Assembly: GCA_030248195.1 (NCBI GenBank)
Contig: JASAND010028244.1
Coordinates: 1 to 64,000, forward strand
DNA length: 64,000 nucleotides
Source: Trissonchulus latispiculum
Lineage: Eukaryota > Nematoda > Enoplea > Enoplida > Ironidae
Reading direction: 5' to 3'
Of the stretch, positions 7,488 to 61,661 are shown piece after piece. Made by a program: the position numbers and the translations under genes. The notes under the pieces were generated by a model, which had not been told where the DNA came from, did no database searches, and saw nothing but the letters and a program-made list of their open reading frames with translations. The number at the start of each line of letters is the position of its first letter. Position 1 is the first letter of the stretch.

Positions 7488-7505
7488 TAAAAAGCATCAA
7501 CTAAG
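7488..7505. repeat. LINE target-site duplication, low-coordinate copy
   Basis: TAAAAAGCATCAACTAAG, 18 bp, identical to 15065-15082. The pair brackets the minus-strand LINE and marks its 3' end. Perfect identity argues for a fairly recent insertion. Confidence 0.88.
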
Positions 7506-8400
7506 TTCTTTGTTTACTTTCTCATGCATATATCGCAAACGGTACAATCAAAAATAGTAACATACAGTCCATAATAGTATATCATAACAAATACAGAACA
7601 GCAAAATTTTAAATTCGCATTAATTCACGACAAAACCACAGTTTAAAGACAAAATTATACATTTCCAGCAGTGCATATAATGTTGACAATTTTAACAGTT
7701 GACAACTTTATCACACAAAAATTTTTCGAAGTTTATTCAGAAATTAATTTTATTTTCTTGGTTTTCTTCTGATATAATCCATGACCTGAAATTAGTACAA
7801 TTTATTAGAATCACATTTTATCTTGCAAATGTAAGTTACTGCGTATTCTAAAAAACAAACTACCGCAGAATTAACAACTGTAACAAATTATTTCAAACTA
7901 CAAGACACAATAAAATTAAGCAAATAAATTAAAAAAACCGAGAAAAAGAGAAAAAGTTCTGGTTTCACCACTGATCCGATCCCATGCCTTCTGATCCGAA
8001 GGCCACGGCTGAGCTCTGCTATAAAGGTATACTTAAAAAGCTGCACAAATTATTTATGATTAATTAATTTCAAGAAAAGCTTATGTTTAACACAGATGCT
8101 AAGTTGCTATAGAGTTTGCTGTTTTCTAATTTGAATTAATTTTTAGTCTTTAACACAACAGTTTTTGCGAAACTCATCCTTTTTCTCTTTTTCTTGGCTC
8201 CAGCATATTCCTGAAACAGATACAAAAACAAGCAGAATTATTAACAGAGGACGATTACTGAAATGACTACAAAGATTATTACATAATTTGTCCAAAAAAC
8301 CCTTTTTTCCGTTTTCAAAAAGATTGTAAATTCCCGTTATTTTTTAATTTTACGTGTCTAATCCCAGCAGCGGCCAAAAATTTTCTAAAAGAAAAATTTT

Positions 8401-8455
8401 GGCCGCTGGTGGGATCGAATCCACGTCTTTCAATTTGTAGCTGAGCCAAGGCGGC
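8401..8455 (-). other. tRNA-like fragment in the LINE 3'UTR
   Basis: On the minus strand, a GCCGCC end and a GCGGCC end could pair as an acceptor stem. Inside are an A-box-like TTGGCTCAGCTAC and a T-arm/B-box-like GGATTCGATCCC. The A-to-B spacing is far too short for a full tRNA (no anticodon arm), so this is at most a degenerate tRNA-derived (SINE-like) piece. It is not a functional tRNA gene. Confidence 0.3.
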
Positions 8456-8624
8456 TTCCTTTGAAGTCTGTCTGGGAGGCTTGCGTTTCCTGTTTGGCAG
8501 TTTGCAACAAAAGTGTGTCTTAATTTTTGGCTGAGCTAGTCTATTGATTTCTAGACTGCTCAGCAAAGCGGAACAAATAGTGTGCAACAAATTTTAACGT
8601 TCCCAGTATTCAAAAACCTGTTTT

Positions 8625-9162
8625 CAAGTGCAGTCGCTTGACTGCTTGTTTTACTGCGAGAAAGGGTTTTCCTGCATTTTCCCTTTGAAAAATGCAGGAC
8701 TGAAATTTTCTAATTTTGGGTTTTCTGCATTTTTCCTTTTAAAAAATGCAGATTTTTTACTATTTCTAATTAATTTTCTGTGACCATAACATATGCAAAA
8801 TATATTCTTTTTTCTATTTTAGGTGGCCAATTTATAATGCTGGCCTATTTCTGTGGATGTCCGCCGCCCGTTGTTTTAACGGGCGGCATTTATTCAATTT
8901 CTAAACCGGCGCTGGCCGGATTTTAATTTATTTGGAAATCTACCTGGCGGCAAGCCTTTTTGCTGGCTTCGCCGCCAGATGACCTGAAACTTACCTGGCG
9001 GCAGAAATACCACTTCTGCCGCCAGATGACAATTTGTGGTGACCTACCCGGCGGCAAATCTGCCAATTTGCCGCCGGATGACAATCGCTATGGATGACAG
9101 CCCGTGGAAATTGCGGGATTGGGCCCCCTGCATTTGCAAAATGAGACAAGCGACTTAGTCGC
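8625..9162. repeat. Array of perfect stem-loops in the LINE 3'UTR
   Basis: Consecutive inverted repeats with small loops: 8625-8648 (one bulge), 8671-8698 (CCTGCATTTT arms), 8724-8752 (TCTGCATTTT arms), 8863-8887 (GCCGCCCGTT arms, 5-base loop), 8906-8919 (CCGGC arms), 8944-8978 (CTGGCGGC arms plus an inner AAGCC/GGCTT stem), 8995-9025 (CTGGCGGCAGAA arms, 12 bp), 9048-9077 (CCGGCGGCAAAT arms, 12 bp) and 9150-9162 (GCGAC arms). The last three GC-rich units are related, yet each differs on both arms so that pairing is kept. Read on the element strand, they are followed by GGTARGT-like sequence (CCAGGTAAGT, CCGGGTAGGT, CCAGGTAGAT), which resembles a 5' splice site. Confidence 0.85.
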
Positions 9163-9676
9163 AATTTAAAAGTTTCAATTATTATGAAATCTAGGGCCCT
9201 TTTAATATTACATTAAATAGGTAACGAGAAAGTGTTGAGCTTAGGGGGAGGGACCTTCCCTGGGGGCCCGGTTCTGCAAAAATAACTTTGAATTTGGAAA
9301 ATTGAAAAACACAAAATTTGTCAAAAATCTAGCCGATTTTCCCCAAAATTGAAACCTTGAACCTGAAACACAAACAAAATACAAAATTAAGACTAAAATT
9401 AACAAAATCAACAAAGCAAATGCATAGTTTCAAATTAGCACAAGATCCACCTTTTTCAAAGTTCAAAGCCATGGATCAAATCTCAATTTCCTTTTAAGTT
9501 TTTATTTTTAGTCTACAAAGTCAGCCTTCTCAACTATTAATTAGCGAAAAACTAAACCGAAATCTTTCTTTCTTGAGTTTAGAAGGAAAAGTGTTGCGAT
9601 TCTATTCAACATTCTAACTTCCTGAAAATACACAAAAACAAATTATGCAAGATAACGCAAAAGCTCAAAACAATAA

Positions 9677-10454
9677 TTACACTTCTTTCAAAACCAAAAT
9701 ACCATCAACCAAGTCATACAGCCCAAAATTCCCGTTCAAATAGTTAGTTATACCAAATTCTCCTTCTAGGGCGCTCGCATTTGAGCCTATTCGCCCCAAC
9801 GATTTCTTGAAAACATCCCATGGGTCCTTAAGATTTTTTGACTTTTTAAAGATTTCCCGAGTAAACCAAATTGCCAACTGCGCCTCCTGAATGGCCAGAT
9901 TAGCACTAATTTGTAATTTTCGGTTTTTCCGCGCCACAAAACCCAAAATTTTCTCTTGCATAATTAAATTTCTGTATGCCAATTGGCTTAAACCTGCCAC
10001 CCATATGCCCTCCGGGGTAGCTACCTTTTTAAGCAGTTGGCAAACTTTTTGCCACAAATTCGAAACTCGAGGGCAAAGAACAAATACATGGATCACATCT
10101 TCGATTACCTCTATATTATTTTGAAGACAGAAATCACAAAATTCGCTGTTTCTCTTATCGATTTGATTCTTTCTCTTGTTGGTCATTAAAACATTATGCA
10201 CCAATTTTAAATGTACATCTAAAGCAATACTTTGAACAAACTTAGTTTTCATGGCTGACCAGATATATTCCCAATCATTTGGGTTTATAGCTGGAAATTT
10301 TTCAAGCCATTTTTCTTGCATTTTCTCTCGTTTTTTCGAAAATTTTTTGCACACTAAAAAGTCGTAAATTTGCTTCAATTTTGCATCTTTGTGCTTGTAA
10401 GCTTTGTTTCCAAAGCTTACAGAATCAGGATTAAAGTGAGGCTCAAGTTGTATT
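9677..10454 (-). pseudogene. Frameshifted C-terminal part of LINE ORF2
   Basis: The reading frame that continues ORF2 after the G-run slip. It is open from near 10462 down to the stop at 9677, and contains a 233-residue stretch from an internal methionine at 10378. It holds a CDFC....HVF..C zinc-binding pattern followed by WQKV, as in the C-terminal domains of L1/Tx1-type ORF2 proteins. The full protein would be about 1,190 residues, normal for the class. A sequencing error in the homopolymer is an alternative to a true mutation. Confidence 0.8.
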
Positions 10455-13244
10455 TCAGCCTGCCCCCTGCCGTAATTCTTTGTAGAATTTCGGAGCTTGA
10501 GTGCGATTGGCAGCGGCTTGGGATTTACCTTTTACAATTTCGTAGAAATAGTCAAAGGTCAAATGCCAAGTCTGATTGCTGCCCAAACGCCTTCGGATCA
10601 GTATAGCAAACCTTTGTGCTAAAATTTTAAGTTCAATTTTTGGAAGTCCAATTCCTCCTTTAGTTTTTGGAAGAACAGCACAGTCTGTGCTGATTAAATT
10701 TTGAGGAATTGGATGCCAGATATATTTTGAAATTAATTCCATCATTCTATTAATTTTTCCACTTTCTGGTGATACGAACCAGGTCGTATACCAGAGAGTG
10801 GACAGAAAATAAGTCATGAGTCCAGTAACTCTTCCATAGGCTGAAATTTTCTCCGGAGGTACGCTCTCTTTCAAACTTGATATAACTTTGTTAAAAATTT
10901 CTTCGGTTTTCGGGTTTTTCAAACCATTCGAGCTGACAAAAACGCCAAAAACTTTGACTTCTTTTTTGAGGTATTCCTGGTATTCTGCAGGCACGTTGGC
11001 CTCAGAATAGCCATTATACAAAAGAATTTGTGTCTTTTCAACTTTAAGTTTACCTCCTGAAACTTCCTCAAAGGTCCCATACAAAGAGAAAATTTCGTTA
11101 ACTGATTTAAAATCCCTCACAGTGAAATTGGTGTCGTCCGCGTAGGCGAAAACTTTCTCCTCGCGTCCTAAAATCGAAATTCCTCGAATTAAATTTGACT
11201 TTCTGACAAAAGTTAGAAAAGTTTCATTGCACAGAACGTAGAGCAACGGCGATAGAGGGCATCCTTGCCGGATCCCTCGACCCAATTTAAAGGGTACCGA
11301 GAGATACCCATTAACTAAAACCGAACTTTGAACTGAATTTTCTTTGTAAATTATGTCTATCCAAGCTCTAAAGTTTGGCCCAAACCCAAATTGTTTGAGT
11401 GCCAATTTAAGAAATTCCCACTCAACTACGTCAAAGGCTGACATTTGGTCAACCGAGAGAAAAATGCACTGTTTTTCTTTAAATTTCGCATAGTCTAGCA
11501 CCCCAGTTAAACTCAAAATTCCATCCCGAATGTCTCTCCCAGGGACTGCGCAGGTTTGGTTATTTCTAACCAAACAAGCCATTACCTGAGAGAGCCTATT
11601 TGTCAAAATTTTAGCTAAAATTTTGTAATCTACATTTAACATACTCAAAGGGCGCCAGTTTTTCCGGTCCGCCCTGTCACCTTTTCCTTTATATAGGAGC
11701 GAAATGATGCCCATATACATATCTTTTGGAAGTTTTCCGTTTCTAAAACTTTGATTATAAACTCTGGCCAAAAATGGGGCGCAAATTTCCAAATGAGACA
11801 GATAAAACTCTATTGCAAGCCCATCTTTTCCGGGCACTTTGCCAGTAGCAAACTGCTTAATTGCAGTTTCTACCTCCTCAACCGAAATTTCTCTTTCTAA
11901 AGCTGAAATCGAAATACTCGGAACTTTTGCCTCCGTTGCTTCCAGAAACTTTTTCGCTTTATCCGAATCTATGCCGACACTTGAAAATAGTTTCTCATAT
12001 TGGGTTCTCATTTCACCCAAAATTTTATTATTTCCTGTCAAAATTTCACCGTTTTCAGCCTTTAGAGTGTAAAAATAACGCTTTTCTCCTTCCACCTTTT
12101 CAATTTTCTTCGCACTCACAATTGAAAAGTTGTCGTAAAGCTCATCTTTTTTATGAGCTCGACCCAAAATTTTCTCAATTTCCTGAAGTTCAATTTTTCG
12201 CATTTTATTTTCAAGAATTGCCTTTCGCTCCTCGTTTCCGGATTGCTGAGCCAAAGACAATTCTTGCTGCAAGATTGAATTTTCTTCTTTCTTTCTTTGT
12301 GCAATTAATTTTCCATGAAATTTGAACAGATTTCTCATAACTTCTTTATGGTTCTCCCATTCAAATAGAATTTCTGAATTTGGCGAATTTTCAACTTTTT
12401 GTTGTGCTTCAAAATTTTGTTCCATAAAATCAAACATGAATGAATTTTCTAGAAAACAATCTCTGGGCATTTTCCAGTAGCCACGCCCTCTTGGCTGGCA
12501 GAAAAGTGAATCTGAAATAAGACATTCTATACCTTTATGATCCGAAAAAGTGGTATGAAAATAGTTAATTTGCATAAAACTTGCCGAATGCCTATTTAAG
12601 GTGTAGATTCGGTCAAGTCTGCTGGCACAATCATGGTTTCGGCTGTAGTGGCTAAATTCTTTCTTTGTGCCAAATTTCTGTCTGAAAACATCAACAAAAG
12701 CAAAATTCTGTTCAATTTCCAAAAACTGAAGTTTACCAGCAGTCGTGTGATGAAGTGCCGAAGCAGAAGTGGCACTGGATTGCCTGTCTAGAATAGGATC
12801 TGAAACAAAATTAAAATCTCCACCTAAAATCATGGAATGATGGCCTTTGCTTCTGTGACCAATAATTTCATTCAAATTTTTAAAGAAATCAGGTCGTTTT
12901 TGAGTGTCAGTTGGTGCATAAACGTTGATTAATAGAATTTTGTGATTTCCAACTTTTAAGCTCACAATTACCAAACGTCCACTCTGTTCGAAAATTAATG
13001 AACAAATTCCAGCAATTCTATGACTAACTAAAATGCAGGCTCCACCTCCTTGACCGGTATAATACGAATGATAGGTCTTGAATTTGTGTTCAAAAATTTG
13101 TTCAAAATAGGAATTTTTGTAGTTAAAATTTGTTTCCTGGACAAATACTATGTCATTTGTCCTGGTCAGTTGAAATAAACTTTCAATTTTAGAGTTTCTT
13201 TTCAACCCATCCGCATTAATACAGACCAAGGAGAGTGGAGCCAT
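10455..13244 (-). CDS. LINE ORF2: endonuclease/reverse transcriptase, C-terminus lost to a frameshift
   Basis: A 929-residue frame, 35 bp after ORF1 and in a different frame. An exonuclease-endonuclease-phosphatase domain occupies residues 1-240, with N10, E37, the VYAPT block, GGDFN (D143, N145), SRLDRIY and SDH (D235, H236) all kept. A charged, helix-rich linker follows (about 300-400). The reverse transcriptase spans about 455-745, with DQMSAFD (D599, D605), GIRQGCPLSP and YADD (701-704). It nicks target DNA and copies the element RNA by target-primed reverse transcription in the nucleus. The frame ends in a stop at 10455-10457, only because of an extra G in a five-G run (plus-strand C run 10463-10467). 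The coding sequence continues in the next frame. Confidence 0.93.
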   Translation of the reverse strand: MAPLSLVCINADGLKRNSKIESLFQLTRTNDIVFVQETNFNYKNSYFEQIFEHKFKTYHSYYTGQGGGACILVSHRIAGICSLIFEQSGRLVIVSLKVGNHKILLINVYAPTDTQKRPDFFKNLNEIIGHRSKGHHSMILGGDFNFVSDPILDRQSSATSASALHHTTAGKLQFLEIEQNFAFVDVFRQKFGTKKEFSHYSRNHDCASRLDRIYTLNRHSASFMQINYFHTTFSDHKGIECLISDSLFCQPRGRGYWKMPRDCFLENSFMFDFMEQNFEAQQKVENSPNSEILFEWENHKEVMRNLFKFHGKLIAQRKKEENSILQQELSLAQQSGNEERKAILENKMRKIELQEIEKILGRAHKKDELYDNFSIVSAKKIEKVEGEKRYFYTLKAENGEILTGNNKILGEMRTQYEKLFSSVGIDSDKAKKFLEATEAKVPSISISALEREISVEEVETAIKQFATGKVPGKDGLAIEFYLSHLEICAPFLARVYNQSFRNGKLPKDMYMGIISLLYKGKGDRADRKNWRPLSMLNVDYKILAKILTNRLSQVMACLVRNNQTCAVPGRDIRDGILSLTGVLDYAKFKEKQCIFLSVDQMSAFDVVEWEFLKLALKQFGFGPNFRAWIDIIYKENSVQSSVLVNGYLSVPFKLGRGIRQGCPLSPLLYVLCNETFLTFVRKSNLIRGISILGREEKVFAYADDTNFTVRDFKSVNEIFSLYGTFEEVSGGKLKVEKTQILLYNGYSEANVPAEYQEYLKKEVKVFGVFVSSNGLKNPKTEEIFNKVISSLKESVPPEKISAYGRVTGLMTYFLSTLWYTTWFVSPESGKINRMMELISKYIWHPIPQNLISTDCAVLPKTKGGIGLPKIELKILAQRFAILIRRRLGSNQTWHLTFDYFYEIVKGKSQAAANRTQAPKFYKELRQGAG

Positions 13245-13279
13245 TTTTCATGACACCACACATAATAGGAGGGGGAGAT

Positions 13280-14935
13280 CTACTTGACCCTTTTTTCTCC
13301 AGATCCATTCGGCGTGGTCTCCAGAGGGCGCTTTTGTGATCCGCTCTTCCTGAAGACCTCCAACTCCGCCGCGATCTCCGGCACCCTCAGCATCTTGACG
13401 CGCAGCATTGTGAGCATATCGCCCAGAACGTTGCGCCCTCTCCACATCGTCGTGTCGTAGACTCGGGGGTCATTCACCCCGAACCCGCAGCTCCACACCA
13501 TGTCGGACGGGTTTGCCTCCACAAGGCGCTGCCCGTCCGTCATCAGAAGGGCCGTCCGAACATCCGCATTTTGGCTAAACTTAGCCACCAGGCCATCCCA
13601 CATCGCCGAAAATTTGTCCTCCTCCTCCCAGGATTTTTCCTGTTCCGGGGAGCCGTGGATCTGGTCCCCCATCCTTTTCACCTCGCCCGGGTTCTCCTTT
13701 TCCAAGAGTTTCTTCGCCTCCTCCTCCGTCTGCCCCATGTGCTTCGCCTTTCTCCAATAATAAAAATGTTCATTGGTCCGGTAGGTTTCGCCGCCGAGAT
13801 GGAAGGGGGCCTCGTAGTGATTGGAATAGGGGTACTTACGGGTGAAGAAAGATACCATCTTTCTCCCGTAAGCCTTCTGATAGAACCGGCTCTTGTGTTC
13901 CAAGAGGACAGGCCAGGTCAGGGCCTGATTGGCCGACAGCGACAGGTTGGACTGGGAGGTCGACCAATCCGCCTGACCGAATTCCGGGGCTTCCTCCTCG
14001 TCCGCCGTAGAGTAGCCCTCCGCCGATTCAGAGGGCACCCGCTTTGTCGCCTCCGCCGTTCCCAGGGAAACCAGTCCCTCCGTCTCCATTAGGACCACAT
14101 CACCTTGGGCACCTGAGCCACCCGCTTCCGTTGGACCAGTTTTCACCGTCTCCCACCGCCTGGGGGGAAGGGGATCCCGTGTCCTGGGCTGGGGCCGCCG
14201 AATCACCTCATCGTTGGGGCATTCCCGTCGGTAGTGCCCCGAACCGAAGCACCGGTTACACCAAGTGCCCCAGTTCGGGTACCACAATTGGACCCGATGT
14301 TGAAAGTCCATGCCCTGGGGGGTGTAGGCCGCGTAGCCAGGGATCACATGATCCTTCCGCACCTTAACCACCACAGACCGGCCGCCGTCCTTCATCGTGG
14401 TCCGCCGCCCATTGGAACCCTTGTAGAAGGTCCACTTGAAGGTAGAGGCCACCTCATACCCCAAGCTTCCCAACCACCGGGCCACATAGTCCTCCGTATC
14501 CGTAATGGGGATATTGTACAGATAGATGGTGCGGAGGTTGAGGTAGAGCCTCTCCTCCTCCTTGGGCATTTCCAACCCCACCAAAATGTTCCCCAGCTTT
14601 ACACCATCCTTCAGGATCCGGTCCCGCAGGGCCTTCCCCCCATAGACCAATTTCAAGTGGAACCTCCCCGCCCGGCGTACGAACTCCGGCAGGGTGTCCC
14701 CCTCGTTTCCCTCATCTAACAATTCCACCAACCTTTGGGTCGTTTCCTCCTGAAATTCCTCCGGGATGGCCAAGTAACCTGTCCGTTGGATCAGATCGTT
14801 CCTGGTGTTTTCACTGGCATCCGCGGATGGAGTGAATTGGCCGGTCTGCTGCTGATCATCTTCCGTTTCATCGCTTCTTCCGGGGGGCGGAATAGCCCCA
14901 TTTAAATCAGCCTGAGGGTGGGTCATAAAGCCCAC
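13280..14935 (-). CDS. LINE ORF1: RRM-like region, CCHC zinc knuckle and NADAR domain
   Basis: Intact 551-residue frame starting 129 bp inside the element's 5' end. Residues 133-195 resemble an RNA-binding (RRM-like) fold (weak call). A zinc knuckle C-x2-C-x4-H-x4-C uses C226, C229, H234 and C239. An acidic, S/T-rich linker follows (about 260-340). Residues 362-516 match the NADAR (YbiA-like) family in order: YPYSNHY, a glutamate in TNEHFYYWRKAKH (E389), KRMGDQI, WEEEDKF..AKFSQN, a LVEANPSDMVWSCGF block (E473, D478, W481), then WRGRNVLGDML with R512. All the motifs I expect are present. Known NADAR proteins cleave N-glycosidic bonds, including removal of ADP-ribose from guanine. Packaging of the element RNA is the usual ORF1 role. 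What NADAR does here is inference: it may protect element nucleic acid from ADP-ribosylation. The gene is clearly richer in G+C than ORF2. Confidence 0.88.
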   Translation of the reverse strand: MGFMTHPQADLNGAIPPPGRSDETEDDQQQTGQFTPSADASENTRNDLIQRTGYLAIPEEFQEETTQRLVELLDEGNEGDTLPEFVRRAGRFHLKLVYGGKALRDRILKDGVKLGNILVGLEMPKEEERLYLNLRTIYLYNIPITDTEDYVARWLGSLGYEVASTFKWTFYKGSNGRRTTMKDGGRSVVVKVRKDHVIPGYAAYTPQGMDFQHRVQLWYPNWGTWCNRCFGSGHYRRECPNDEVIRRPQPRTRDPLPPRRWETVKTGPTEAGGSGAQGDVVLMETEGLVSLGTAEATKRVPSESAEGYSTADEEEAPEFGQADWSTSQSNLSLSANQALTWPVLLEHKSRFYQKAYGRKMVSFFTRKYPYSNHYEAPFHLGGETYRTNEHFYYWRKAKHMGQTEEEAKKLLEKENPGEVKRMGDQIHGSPEQEKSWEEEDKFSAMWDGLVAKFSQNADVRTALLMTDGQRLVEANPSDMVWSCGFGVNDPRVYDTTMWRGRNVLGDMLTMLRVKMLRVPEIAAELEVFRKSGSQKRPLETTPNGSGEKRVK

Positions 14936-15064
14936 TCACCCCAGTAATAGGCAGAAATAGAATAATAGGCAGCAGCAATCAGAATAAGAATAATAGTAAA
15001 GAAACACTTACAGAATGACAATGATGAAATCACACGATCATAGCCATTTACGGCGATGAAGCGA

Positions 15065-15082
15065 TAAAAAGCATCAACTAAG
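15065..15082. repeat. LINE target-site duplication, high-coordinate copy
   Basis: Second copy of TAAAAAGCATCAACTAAG, marking the 5' end of the minus-strand LINE. It lies 129 bp upstream of the ORF1 start, so the element looks full length at its 5' end. Confidence 0.88.
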
Positions 15083-15306
15083 CCGTAAAACTTTTTTTAA
15101 TTAGTTGACTACGTATATTTGTTATATAATATTTTTCAAAAATGGCCATTTTGGTTTTGATTTGGAACCTGATTGGTTGATGCTGCACGATTTTTGAACT
15201 ATTCAAGTCGATAAAAATTGTTTCTAATTCATCATATCTGGCTTTTAGCTAAATACACTAAATTTGATGCGCTTTTTCACCTGGAAGCATCAAATCTACT
15301 CCAGCG

Positions 15307-16021
15307 CTGTGTTTTTTTTTTCGTCGAAACTTTTTGCGAACTTTTACGCAGTCCTCCAAAATTTTTTGCGGAATTTCGCAAAAAATTGCGAAATACTAAT
15401 TTTTTAGTATTTTAAAGATAACTAATGAATTTTAGTAATTTGGCTGTGTTTAAACACATTTTTAATATATATTTAACGTATGGTATTAACCAAGTTATAA
15501 CTATTTTTCGAAAGTCGAAGCATGTATAAGCGTGTTTTACAAGTATACTTAATAGTGAAGAGACGCGGGGGTCTGGGGGCGGAGCCCCCAGAAGCTGAGA
15601 AAATTTTGTAAAGCCGAGGAAAATCCTTAGTGTGGAAATACTCAAAAGTTTAGTTTCGACTGTCAGTAAAATCCTAAGATATAAGCAAACTGCTAATAGG
15701 TTAATAATTGTTTAAAATTATGGTATGTTATGGTTTCAAGGCTAAAAGAATTTCATTGAATAGCTGTCACTAGGCATTCTAACTCAGCCAAGATTGAAAG
15801 GTGTCTACGCATATAGAAATACGCGCCGAAGGCGCGAAATTTTTTGAAATTTTTCTTCAAAAAGTATCAGAAACACGTTTATTTCTCATCTGAGACAACT
15901 GAAAATGTCTACTCAGAGACAAAATTTTTTGCGGAACTTTACGCAGAGCTCCGAAAAAAGTTGCGGAATTTTCAAAAAAAGTGCGGAATTTCGCAGTTTT
16001 TTTCGCAAAAAAAAAACACAG
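15307..16021. mobile_element. hAT-like nonautonomous element with 8-bp duplication
   Basis: Termini CTGTGTTTTTTTTTT and AAAAAAAAAACACAG form an inverted repeat and are bracketed by CTCCAGCG at 15299-15306 and 16022-16029. The 8-bp duplication fits hAT. Inside are repeated GCGGAATTTCGCA-type words and hairpins GGGGGCGGAGCCCCC (around 15577) and CGCGCCGAAGGCGCG (15822-15836). No transposase is present. Confidence 0.75.
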
Positions 16022-16029
16022 CTCCAGCG

Positions 16030-17121: not shown

Positions 17122-42068
<24,947 letters not shown>

Positions 42069-58420: not shown

Positions 58421-58786
58421 TCATATGTTATTTGGGCAGCAGTGTAATAACAGGAAGCTGAGGGTTACATAGGTGCACACTAGGAATACCCATAGCTGCC
58501 ATGGACCGACAGCGAATCCATGAAGAAATCCGAAGAAGCCTTTGTTCATTATTCCAGTAACCACTCCTTGGGCCTCTTGTTTTGGTGATCTTCGGGTGGT
58601 GCGATCGCGGAGTACCTGTAGAATCTTCTGTTGATATTGTAACCCTCCAATAATTTTGTTTAGGCTGATTTTCGAGGTAATTTCTGAGAAATTATACCTG
58701 ACGATTTGACTGAAGATTGTAGGTTGAAAGCTCCAGGGTTCGGTAGTATTCCACGAGAATGCTCTGAGCTCCGGAATGTGTAGCAA
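58421..58786 (-). pseudogene. Envelope-like C-terminus with membrane anchor
   Basis: 121 codons with sequons (NTT, NFS), a charged helical stretch, then GFFGFLHGFAVGPWQLWVFLVC and a following hydrophobic run, forming a C-terminal membrane anchor with a very short tail. Topology fits a class of retroelement envelope. It is one frame away from the preceding piece. Confidence 0.55.
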
Positions 58787-58791
58787 CGGCG

Positions 58792-59948
58792 TTAAACGCC
58801 GGTTTCACTCTGGTAAGTGTACATTTTCCCATGCAACTGCACTGGGATTTCTCTGTTCAGTCTACAGTCGACTGGATAAAGATTTTTATGTACAATATGA
58901 GTAATAGGATCGAGATAGGCAGTGTATTCCTGTGAGTTGAGCAAAAATTTGATTGGAATTTCCAGGCTACATGTCTCGTTCATCGGTTGGAAGTGATAAA
59001 ATCCTTGTTCGATTTCTTGACATGGCCACGTAGATATTACGTACCCTCCTGCTCTTGCAATGATGTCGTTCCGGCCAAAGATTGCCCTGACCGCAAGCGT
59101 TGGATTTGCCATCATGTCTGCTTTGAGGACTTCCATGATTGTTGCCATAGATCGACAGACGTCGTTCATTGCCTATCTGAAGGCAAACTTTAGGTTCCTT
59201 TCAAGTTTAAATTCTTGTGCCAGTAGTGACGAAGCCATGAGGTCGGTCGTTACGATTCCGTCATTAATAGCCCACTGTTTAAGTTGAGGCCGTACATTTT
59301 CTGTTTTCTGAAGTCATCAGTTGCCATCGGTTGTTCTGGTGTCGTGAAGTTAAATGTTGATAGTTTAGTTTTGTGGCTTGGCGTGTTGAGTCTCACAGGG
59401 ATGCCCTGATCCGTGAGCTGAATAGTGCGGCCGACACAATCTTTCGCAAACTTTCCGCCTTTGAATGTGAGTGCTAACTGATTGTTGTCTGCTAACCAAT
59501 TAGTTCCCCAAATTTCGCCTGATAGTGTTTACTGTTCGAGGAATTCACATCGCTCGTCCTGATTTGGTTCCCAAAGCAGGTAACTATCGTCTCGAAGTTG
59601 ACTTCAACCAGATCTATAATCACAGTGTTCTACCCATCCAGCTATAGATTCCATACCTTCACTACTGTGACGTTTATAGACGTACGCCTCATACATGAAA
59701 CAATTAGTGGCGGTGTAGCTATGCCAGTGGCAACAATTCATACCCCCTCCAGACCATTCGTAATTCACTTAGTTGTCCGTCTGCCACAGACCGCCACGCA
59801 ATGTAAGAGGTCCAGCATCACATTAATGGAATCTTCTCATAGATTCGCATTCAGTTCCCGTCACTCTCAAATAGTGTTTTTCTTCCTCTTTTAAGTGGTG
59901 GGTTGCGGAAAAGTATGTGAATGTCCGTACAGTTTGTTTCACCATAGT
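58792..59948 (-). pseudogene. Envelope-like middle region, frameshifted
   Basis: Cysteine-rich pieces in several frames between 59948 and 59170, then a clean 125-codon frame (59169-58792) with paired cysteines (WPCQEIEQGFYHF, NETCSLEIP, YPVDCR) and an N-glycosylation sequon (NET). Ectodomain-like. It is broken in at least two places. Confidence 0.5.
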
Positions 59949-60794
59949 TCATTTCCATGCTTTTGACTTATATTTGACGTAGTTGTGTTTGTAGAGGGTT
60001 GACTCTACATCCTCTAGCTCTCTACGAGCAGGAGTTGTTGTGGAGCTGCACTGGAGGCGTCCCGGTAATCGCCACAGAGCTCTACCTTGTTCTGTTTGGC
60101 ACACCATCGGTCCGCTTGCCATTTCATTAATGCTTCGAACTGATGCGACTGGTGATATTAGGCAGATGGCTATAAGCAAGATTGTTAACTTCAGTGAGTA
60201 GCCGTCGAGGGAATTGGACAAAGGCGAATCGGCATTGGCTCGTCGTGGTTCCTGCGGAGTATTTCCAGACTGTGTTTGTGACTTCGTTCGTTGTTTGTGC
60301 GATTTCACTCTCACAGATTTAGTAACCGGAGTGTTCCCAGTTGGCGCTGTAAAGATTGGAGAGCTCTTTGTGTCAGCAGTAGTATAAGGGTCTTTGGAAT
60401 ATTCGCCACAATTGCTTGTGTCATTGCTTTGATTATCGACGGAGGTGGGCCGGACTGTTATGCTGCCCACAAAATCTGAGTATTGACTGTTTAGTAGCTC
60501 CTGGTTCTGTTCTGTAGGCATTTTGATGGTTTCTTGCAATTCGGTAATATCAGTTGTTTTGTCCTCCGTCGATTCGTATTCGTAGCAATAGCGAGGAACG
60601 CTGGTTTGTTTGGTTTCGAGGCACGCAAGTTGGTGGGCTTTTACTATTGTCACCCCGATTCCGCCAGTTTGCTTGATTGGTATGGTTTTGGCGCCAGTTG
60701 TCTGTAGCACTGTTCGATCCTTGTGCCTCTCCGTCACGCTTCCGTTTGCGGCAGTTTTATAACGAAATGTCCTGGCTGTTTGCAGTAATGACAA
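59949..60794 (-). pseudogene. Linker and envelope-like N-terminus
   Basis: 281 codons. The first 200 are polar, T/S/Q-rich and unrecognised. A hydrophobic segment (SLKLTILLIAICLISPVASV) looks like a signal peptide and is followed by a short cysteine-bearing stretch. It directly follows gag, so no room is left for pol. The envelope assignment is inferred from position and topology. Confidence 0.5.
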
Positions 60795-61266
60795 ATAATA
60801 CGACTGTCAGTAGTCCAACCTCGTACATTTCTAGGCTAAAATCGGGCTCGGGAAGTTCTTGAGGCGGTTGACGAGGTGCCTGAAGTGGTTTAGGCCTTTC
60901 CATTAAGCCTAGAACGTATCCACTTTGGCGCTCGTGATCCATTGTGAGTTTCTGCAGTTTGTCGTTGATTTCTTCAAATGTCCTTCCGGTTGCCACGGTA
61001 TCTACCATGGCTTGTGCGGGTGTAGTGCCTGAAGGACTGAGGCCGGCTGTTAAATATTCGCCAGCTTCGATGAGTTTGGAATGTTTCAGCGCATCTTCAA
61101 AATTCTGGGGTTCCTTGGCCATTACTAGTCGACCATAGTGCGGCAGCAGACCGGAAATGAAGAATTCGAGGCAGGGTTGTTCTTGGTGTCCGGCATCAAA
61201 TGCTGGATAAGCGCCCTTTATGAGTTTGTTGATATTTGCGCCGAAATCAGAAACTCTCTCATGCAC
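60757..61266 (-). pseudogene. gag, C-terminal part of the capsid region
   Basis: Continues the capsid (LIKGAYPAFD, ISGLLPHYGRLVMAK, FEDALKHSKLIEAGEY) in a different frame from the preceding fragment. Near 60770-60800 a third frame holds CHYCKQPGHF, the front of a zinc knuckle whose last cysteine is absent. Confidence 0.65.
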
Positions 61267-61661
61267 TTGTTGCGTGCGCCGATGTAATTGACACTCTTAA
61301 ACCGAAAACCGAGCCATTTCGCTGGTTCCAAGGCGCTTTTTAACGCCTTAATTAAACTGCTGTAATTGGCTTTCGTAGCTGCGTCAAGAGCAGCGTAAGT
61401 GTCTCTTGCCTGTCCCTCCAAGCAGACAGGCAGCATCCTGGCTTTTTCATCTGGTGTCCAATTATTGGCGGTCCCGATGATATCGTATGAATCGATAAAT
61501 TCTTTCCAACTTTCGCGAGCCTGTCCAGAATAGCGTAACCCAAGAAGGCTGGTAACGCCACGAAACCCTGACATGGCTTGCTTCAGACTTCCAAGGAGGG
61601 TTTGCAGGGCTGCTTGTAGCTGGCTAAAGTCCGGCAGTTGACCTGGCGGAGGAGTACTCAT
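61218..61661 (-). pseudogene. gag, N-terminal part of the capsid region
   Basis: 147 codons starting MSTPPPGQLPDF. The pattern LRYSGQARESWKEFID...W....ARMLPVCLEGQARDTYAAL is typical of the retrotransposon gag capsid fold. It loses frame near 61220-61266, where the next fragment begins. A leader frame (61905-61624) precedes it in another frame. Confidence 0.7.

Follow-up and report, generated by a model that had tools for sequence, protein, structure and literature searches.

In our literature search, the NADAR domain and transposable elements were found together only in PMC12477816 (2025), whose passages on the subject report divergent NADAR matches to the first open reading frame (ORF1) of several Tx1 families of long interspersed nuclear elements (LINEs) in Crassostrea gigas, and a Gypsy lineage of Ectocarpus that holds a NADAR domain, for which a role in the processing of the RNA intermediate is suggested. 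Published NADARs take ADP-ribose off guanine in DNA and RNA and, according to the relevant part of PMC11833690, no other family of hydrolases has been found that undoes the ADP-ribosylation of RNA on guanosine bases. The roles of animal NADARs are described as unclear in the section of PMC11125620 that deals with them, and the nematode NADAR protein SNA-3 is presented in PMC9303266 as required for SL1 trans-splicing, with an unknown substrate. Here, we describe a NADAR domain built into ORF1 of a LINE inserted in a stretch of 64,000 nucleotides (the window) of the nematode Trissonchulus latispiculum (contig JASAND010028244.1, positions 1 to 64,000). Because PMC12477816 mentions the oyster ORF1 matches, fusions of this type were already on record, and the initial annotation of the window, which knew of no description of such a fusion, had been anticipated. 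Beyond this precedent, the present LINE family is distinguished by measured selection on its NADAR, by a pocket change shared by every intact copy examined, and by the fact that other element classes carry NADARs in parallel.

The domain is encoded by an uninterrupted minus-strand frame of 551 residues (13280-14935), as expected from the earlier claim that ORF1 is intact. This frame opens with GTG and its first ATG is at 14926; because this ATG is Met4 of the frame and the ORF1 alignments of several relatives begin at residue 4, the ORF1 protein is probably 548 amino acids (aa) long. The pocket positions are numbered after the Phytophthora nicotianae NADAR (8bau), as in PMC11543638. The features of ORF1 are as follows:

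13280..14926, minus strand: ORF1, beginning at the first ATG, which is Met4 of the GTG frame listed as 13280-14935
13388..13864, minus strand: NADAR domain, residues 358-516 (Pfam match, AlphaFold2 (AF2) model, structural comparison)
13748..13771, minus strand: E389 to K396, equivalent to E43 and K50 of 8bau (alignment, intact copies)
13664..13666, minus strand: D424, where 8bau has the pyrophosphate-binding R79 (alignment, intact copies)
13493..13519, minus strand: E473, D478 and W481, equivalent to E125, D130 and W133 of 8bau (alignment, intact copies)
14219..14260, minus strand: CCHC zinc knuckle, residues 226-239 (C226-x2-C-x4-H-x4-C pattern, sub-threshold Pfam match)

The initial annotation had recognized the NADAR domain and the zinc knuckle by their motifs, and both readings held. 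The Pfam-A NADAR profile (PF08719) matches residues 366-514 (E=1.2e-31; 110.6 bits, cut-off 35.1). A PHROGs search of ORF1 returned phrog_1017 (E=5.8e-35). The predicted structure of this C-terminal domain has the YbiA fold, and all the residues named beforehand were found, namely E389, E473, D478, W481 and W498-x-G500-x-N502-x-L504-G505. The CCHC pattern was read directly in the protein, where Pfam zf-CCHC_2 matches residues 226-241 below its cut-off (E=0.0026). The window copy has E389, E473, K396, D424, W436, K441, W481 and D478 at the 8bau pocket positions. In 8bau, according to the description of its pocket in PMC11543638, the distal ribose is held by E43 and E125, and the catalytic-type trio E43/K50/E125 corresponds to E389/K396/E473, which is the same in 16/16 intact copies of the LINE. 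E473 is a glutamate in the last strand, instead of an aspartate or a histidine, which places the domain in the YbiA subfamily as the relevant passages of PMC11543638 and PMC11125620 delimit it.

To collect the LINE copies, we queried the 734-Mb genome (21,732 contigs) with ORF1 residues 1-338, a part free of NADAR, and obtained at least 121 matching stretches, the window's included (325 candidates, 119 scored), with identities from 100% to 41%, some copies giving two or three of the 121 rows. In 49 of these rows (including two pieces of one C17230 copy, whose third row has stops), the match has no stop and its frame is 500 aa long or more; the 16 of the 49 that were read all have the NADAR. 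The domain follows the N-terminal part in 29 of the 30 loci considered (L136, the window copy, to L165), and it is kept in L164 and L165, members with about 45% ORF1 identity; a single intact frame of at least 540 aa runs through the NADAR in 16 of the 30, most of the others being interrupted within ORF1.

The ratio of nonsynonymous to synonymous substitution rates (dN/dS) of the NADAR is 0.070 (NG86, six non-overlapping pairs; 32.5 nonsynonymous and 108.5 synonymous changes), with single-pair values from 0.00 to 0.12 (12 of 14 pairs, those with usable dS). By the same six-pair method, it is 0.068 for residues 121-245, 0.133 for residues 4-120 and 0.190 for the linker. In the codon model, the log-likelihood (lnL) of the NADAR is -4056.9 with a free omega and -4521.5 at omega 1, and the gain of the free omega amounts to 465 log units for the NADAR, 449 for residues 121-245, 246 for residues 4-120 and 110 for the linker, differences that are indicative, the constrained fits having held kappa at 2. 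The sampling of intact copies only biases these values towards constraint, and the time spent as dead copies biases them in the opposite direction. We conclude that strong purifying selection acts on the NADAR in the 16 intact copies compared, in line with the selected function that the initial annotation had suggested from the conservation of the likely active residues: the domain is neither neutral nor, in the loci read, generally absent, and its catalytic-type residues do not vary among the 16. That it might be a neutral passenger, recently captured by read-through, is hardly credible, unless the copies examined are unrepresentative, in view of this dN/dS, of the codon fits and of the presence of the domain in such distant members as L164 and L165. 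Two other parts of ORF1 can be delimited, the second of which we presume to be RRM-like:

13865..14200, minus strand: linker, residues 246-357, the least conserved part of ORF1 (mean pairwise identity 0.458)
14321..14539, minus strand: alpha/beta segment, residues 133-205, of low confidence (AF2 pLDDT about 25-58; weak structural matches only)

NADARs also occur in other elements of the same genome, in which a genome-wide Pfam search gave 2478 first-look candidates, all 150 of those scored being over the cut-off. In 28 loci from this list, no match was found to the LINE ORF1 N-terminal of the NADAR, or to ORF2. These loci are of two kinds, short NADAR genes and proteins of up to 731 residues with a C-terminal NADAR. 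At L001, the short genes adjoin an A32-type packaging ATPase (PF04665, 5.2e-9) and a TBP (PF00352, 5.7e-37), an arrangement that looks as in Maverick/adintovirus-like elements; by eye, L002-L006 share the L001 ORFs, and a similar ATPase occurs in L016, L021, L023 and L028. The C-terminal-NADAR protein lies downstream of a Gypsy-type pol (by eye) in L010, L013, L014, L025, L133 and L134. Also by eye, the NADAR comes after C2H2-like zinc-finger segments in L017, L018 and L024 (Maverick/adintovirus-like), while L007, L008, L011 and L012 were typed as Gypsy-like with a C-terminal-NADAR protein after pol, L008 having a protein-kinase ORF downstream (L008:2576-3427, PF00069 4.2e-18). The window itself holds, at 58499-61278 on the minus strand, the remains of an env-bearing Gypsy-type element, whose identity to the NADAR-carrying L134 element is 42-50% over the env-like part and 34-35% over two gag pieces; a search of the window frames of at least 40 aa revealed no other NADAR.

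In a NADAR tree of 62 rows, the LINE domains form one clade (99/100), the Gypsy-type domains another (100/96) and the Maverick-type domains one or two, a topology that fits separate captures by the three classes of elements, the alternative being that the NADAR entered once, early, and was then passed between them. P0001 joins the tree by a long branch that does not belong to the LINE clade; it is a protein of 637 aa, ORF1-like and of coiled-coil type by eye, in which the C-terminal NADAR alone exceeds its Pfam cut-off and next to which no ORF2 was seen.

Given that the domain is fused to ORF1, has the predicted fold, keeps its catalytic-type residues unchanged and is under purifying selection, we propose, as a possibility that falls somewhat short of probable, that the ORF1 NADAR is an N-glycosidase removing ADP-ribose-type adducts from the bases of the element's own RNA or complementary DNA; the de-ADP-ribosylation interpretation given earlier is plausible. 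First, the zinc-knuckle ORF1 protein (ORF1p) of a LINE coats the RNA that encoded it, and from this LINE biology a NADAR enzyme would ride on the ribonucleoprotein (RNP) via ORF1p. Second, judging from the published NADARs, adducts on the bases would stop reverse transcription, and an enzyme that takes them off would leave a template that the element's reverse transcriptase can read, to the benefit of insertion. Third, host or environmental nucleic-acid ADP-ribosyltransferases may have pressed several element classes of this genome into NADAR uptake. Fourth, an aspartate, glutamate or glycine at the R79 position would alter the hold on the pyrophosphate, and the substrate may be a variant adduct.

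The following observations weigh against this proposal. The R79 position is D in seven, E in seven and G in two of the 16 intact LINE copies, as compared with R in 95, K in 5 and Q in 4 of 104 bacterial and viral rows, and with R, K, Q or S in the other NADARs of the same genome (28 loci); among the rows examined, D/E/G is confined to the LINE clade, at a position where arginine is common in the NADAR superfamily, not defining. Charge reversal there could weaken ADP-ribose binding. R93 of 8bau is also replaced, by a lysine in 16/16 copies, this position and the rest of the eight other pocket sites being invariant. L150, one of the 30 LINE loci, has no NADAR. In the pocket of P0001, R79 is replaced by N, K50 by R and D130 by E. 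A search for a DarT-family writer (six frames without introns, DarT family only) gave 0 candidates in the genome. Finally, purifying selection shows that there is a function, not which one.

Because the pyrophosphate-binding arginine is gone in 16/16 copies, the substrate or the binding mode would differ from that of 8bau: a catalytic set kept while the charge of the phosphate grip is reversed suggests, at the level of sequence, that the enzyme is live and that its substrate or binding mode has changed, and the altered pocket is a real argument against the textbook NADAR substrate. It is worth noting that the published mutants affecting activity hit the equivalents of E43, K50 and E125, the section of PMC11543638 on these mutants having none of R79. 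The R79 change would also suit a substrate without a tightly held pyrophosphate, such as a small NAD-derived or nucleotide molecule cleaved near the RNP (a cyclic ADP-ribose-like alarm signal or a damaged nucleotide), and PMC9503650 argues, in its part on phages, that ADP-ribose derivatives of low molecular weight are the substrates of many of their NADARs. We regard this alternative as rather unlikely, as the fusion to a zinc-knuckle ORF1, and in P0001 to an ORF1-like protein (by eye), points to a substrate in the RNP, and macromolecular targets are favoured in the same article, where it turns to eukaryotic RNA viruses, for their NADARs. The loss of R79 from every intact copy would equally agree with a NADAR turned into a non-catalytic module that binds RNA, ADP-ribose or protein, in RNP assembly or as a link to host RNA processing, and SNA-3, a NADAR protein acting in trans-splicing, also speaks for such a module. 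Such a role appears unlikely to us, since the E, K and E equivalents tied to catalysis, and W, D and W, are invariant in 16/16 copies and would be needless for a scaffold; furthermore, SNA-3 is impaired by mutations of such residues in its NADAR domains, a folding effect not being excluded by the authors in their account of these mutants (PMC9303266). As ADP-ribosylation is discussed within animal antiviral defence in a section of PMC9503650, the NADAR might instead reverse the ADP-ribosylation of an RNP protein or of a host restriction factor; this is improbable, the NADAR activities reported in the relevant sections of the cited literature being on N-glycosidic base or nucleotide substrates, with no protein de-ADP-ribosylation among them.

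In bacteria, nucleic-acid ADP-ribosylation is established as an antiphage defence; a selected ADP-ribose-eraser domain in a LINE ORF1, present in other element classes of the genome too, makes it testable whether animals use such marks against genome parasites. If the LINE NADAR does clear base adducts from the element's nucleic acids, the modified base that it removes would name the host mark, and the change at the pyrophosphate site would be a natural experiment on NADAR specificity. In a bolder scenario, which we offer as speculation and rate as rather unlikely, an arms race over base ADP-ribosylation would be at work in this genome: a host system would mark foreign RNA or DNA with ADP-ribose, the LINE, Gypsy-type and Maverick-type elements, unrelated to one another, would each have taken a NADAR eraser, and the LINE pocket would have been rebuilt with an acidic residue for an adduct or binding mode used by no characterized NADAR.

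The insertion that carries this ORF1 in the window comprises the following features:

7506..15064, minus strand: whole LINE insertion, about 7.56 kb (between the target-site duplications; 5' end also from locus homology)
15065..15082, minus strand: target-site duplication, 5' copy (exact 18-bp match)
7488..7505, minus strand: target-site duplication, 3' copy (exact 18-bp match)
10455..13244, minus strand: ORF2, endonuclease and reverse transcriptase of the L1 group, interrupted (Pfam, human L1 ORF2p match)
9677..10378, minus strand: C-terminal ORF2 part in a different frame (weak zf-RVT match below cut-off)
7506..9676, minus strand: 3' untranslated region (inferred from the ORF2 end and the target-site duplication)
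15032..15065, minus strand: 5'-terminal hairpin, which we take to resemble the 5' end of U2 small nuclear RNA (snRNA)

When the 5' zone was shuffled 300 times (first order), the longest match reached 15 (mean 10.6), less than the 18 bp of the duplication. This zone aligns in 7 of the 13 other loci compared, with a homology that begins between 15072 and 15007, in agreement with a 5' end at 15064; the 3' end is set by the duplication alone. ORF2 has an APE-type endonuclease (PF03372, 4e-11) and a reverse transcriptase (RVT_1, 1.2e-29), and among solved structures it is closest to human L1 ORF2p (E=2.6e-64), with R2 at 3.8e-18. The element is therefore an L1-group LINE (an APE-type retrotransposon without long terminal repeats, LTRs), and the insertion is one full-length copy with an intact ORF1 and an interrupted ORF2. 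Because ORF2 is broken and its end lies in a different frame, the window copy is not an intact element, and the intactness noted earlier, which was that of ORF1, extends to ORF1 only. The zinc-knuckle ORF1 presumably fits the Tx1 clade. In L152 and L153, unlike in most copies, ORF2 (first ~270 residues) is 81-82% identical to that of the window and ORF1 about 55-56%, a mismatch that may reflect a swap of ORF1 and ORF2 between LINE lineages.

The LINE 5' end reads ATCGCTTC-hairpin-GATC, also at L139, L140, L141, L147, L150, L154 and L157, and it is, we assume, much like the U2 snRNA 5' stem-loop. The score for this U2-like end exceeds all 100 shuffles of the same copy in 8 of 20 copies (window included) and does not in the other 12; the stem letters vary among copies, and the hairpin still folds in most of the 11 tried. 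Rfam gave no U2 match in the window (gathering threshold) or in 12 LINE loci, and tRNA-like matches above its cut-off lie near two LINE copies (L147:2421-2492, L147:2894-2966 and L157:3701-3761). Just upstream of the LINE, 15306-16022 is a DNA element of ~0.7 kb whose terminal inverted repeats are perfect over 16 bp and which is flanked by a repeat of ~8-9 bp. Host exons at 21830-26414 (plus strand) encode a DEAH-box RNA helicase that looks DHX38/PRP16-like by eye.

Similarly to the window LINE, the oyster Tx1 families of PMC12477816 have an ORF1 with a YbiA-family NADAR; compared by description only, they differ in that their NADARs are called divergent and are described, in the passages concerned, without selection or pocket analysis. 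The Gypsy element with a YbiA-family NADAR, an LTR element, has it in Pol, whereas here it is in a LINE ORF1, and the Gypsy-type elements of the present genome (by eye) have it in a separate ORF after pol. The DarT-linked NADAR antitoxin (BC4488 family) is characterized by a linked DarT and by an aspartate where 8bau has E125; here, that position is E473 and no DarT candidate was found in the genome. The Phytophthora nicotianae NADAR and E. coli YbiA (2b3w) lie outside any retrotransposon protein, and R79 and R93 of the former are D and K in the window LINE. Like the LINE, the animal positive-strand RNA viruses treated in part of PMC9503650 are parasites with an RNA stage and a NADAR that accompanies replication proteins, in their case in a polyprotein; they are viruses and not retrotransposons, and their NADARs are proposed there to counter macromolecular ADP-ribosylation. 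P0001, too, resembles the LINE protein in architecture, being ORF1-like by eye with its NADAR at the C-terminus.
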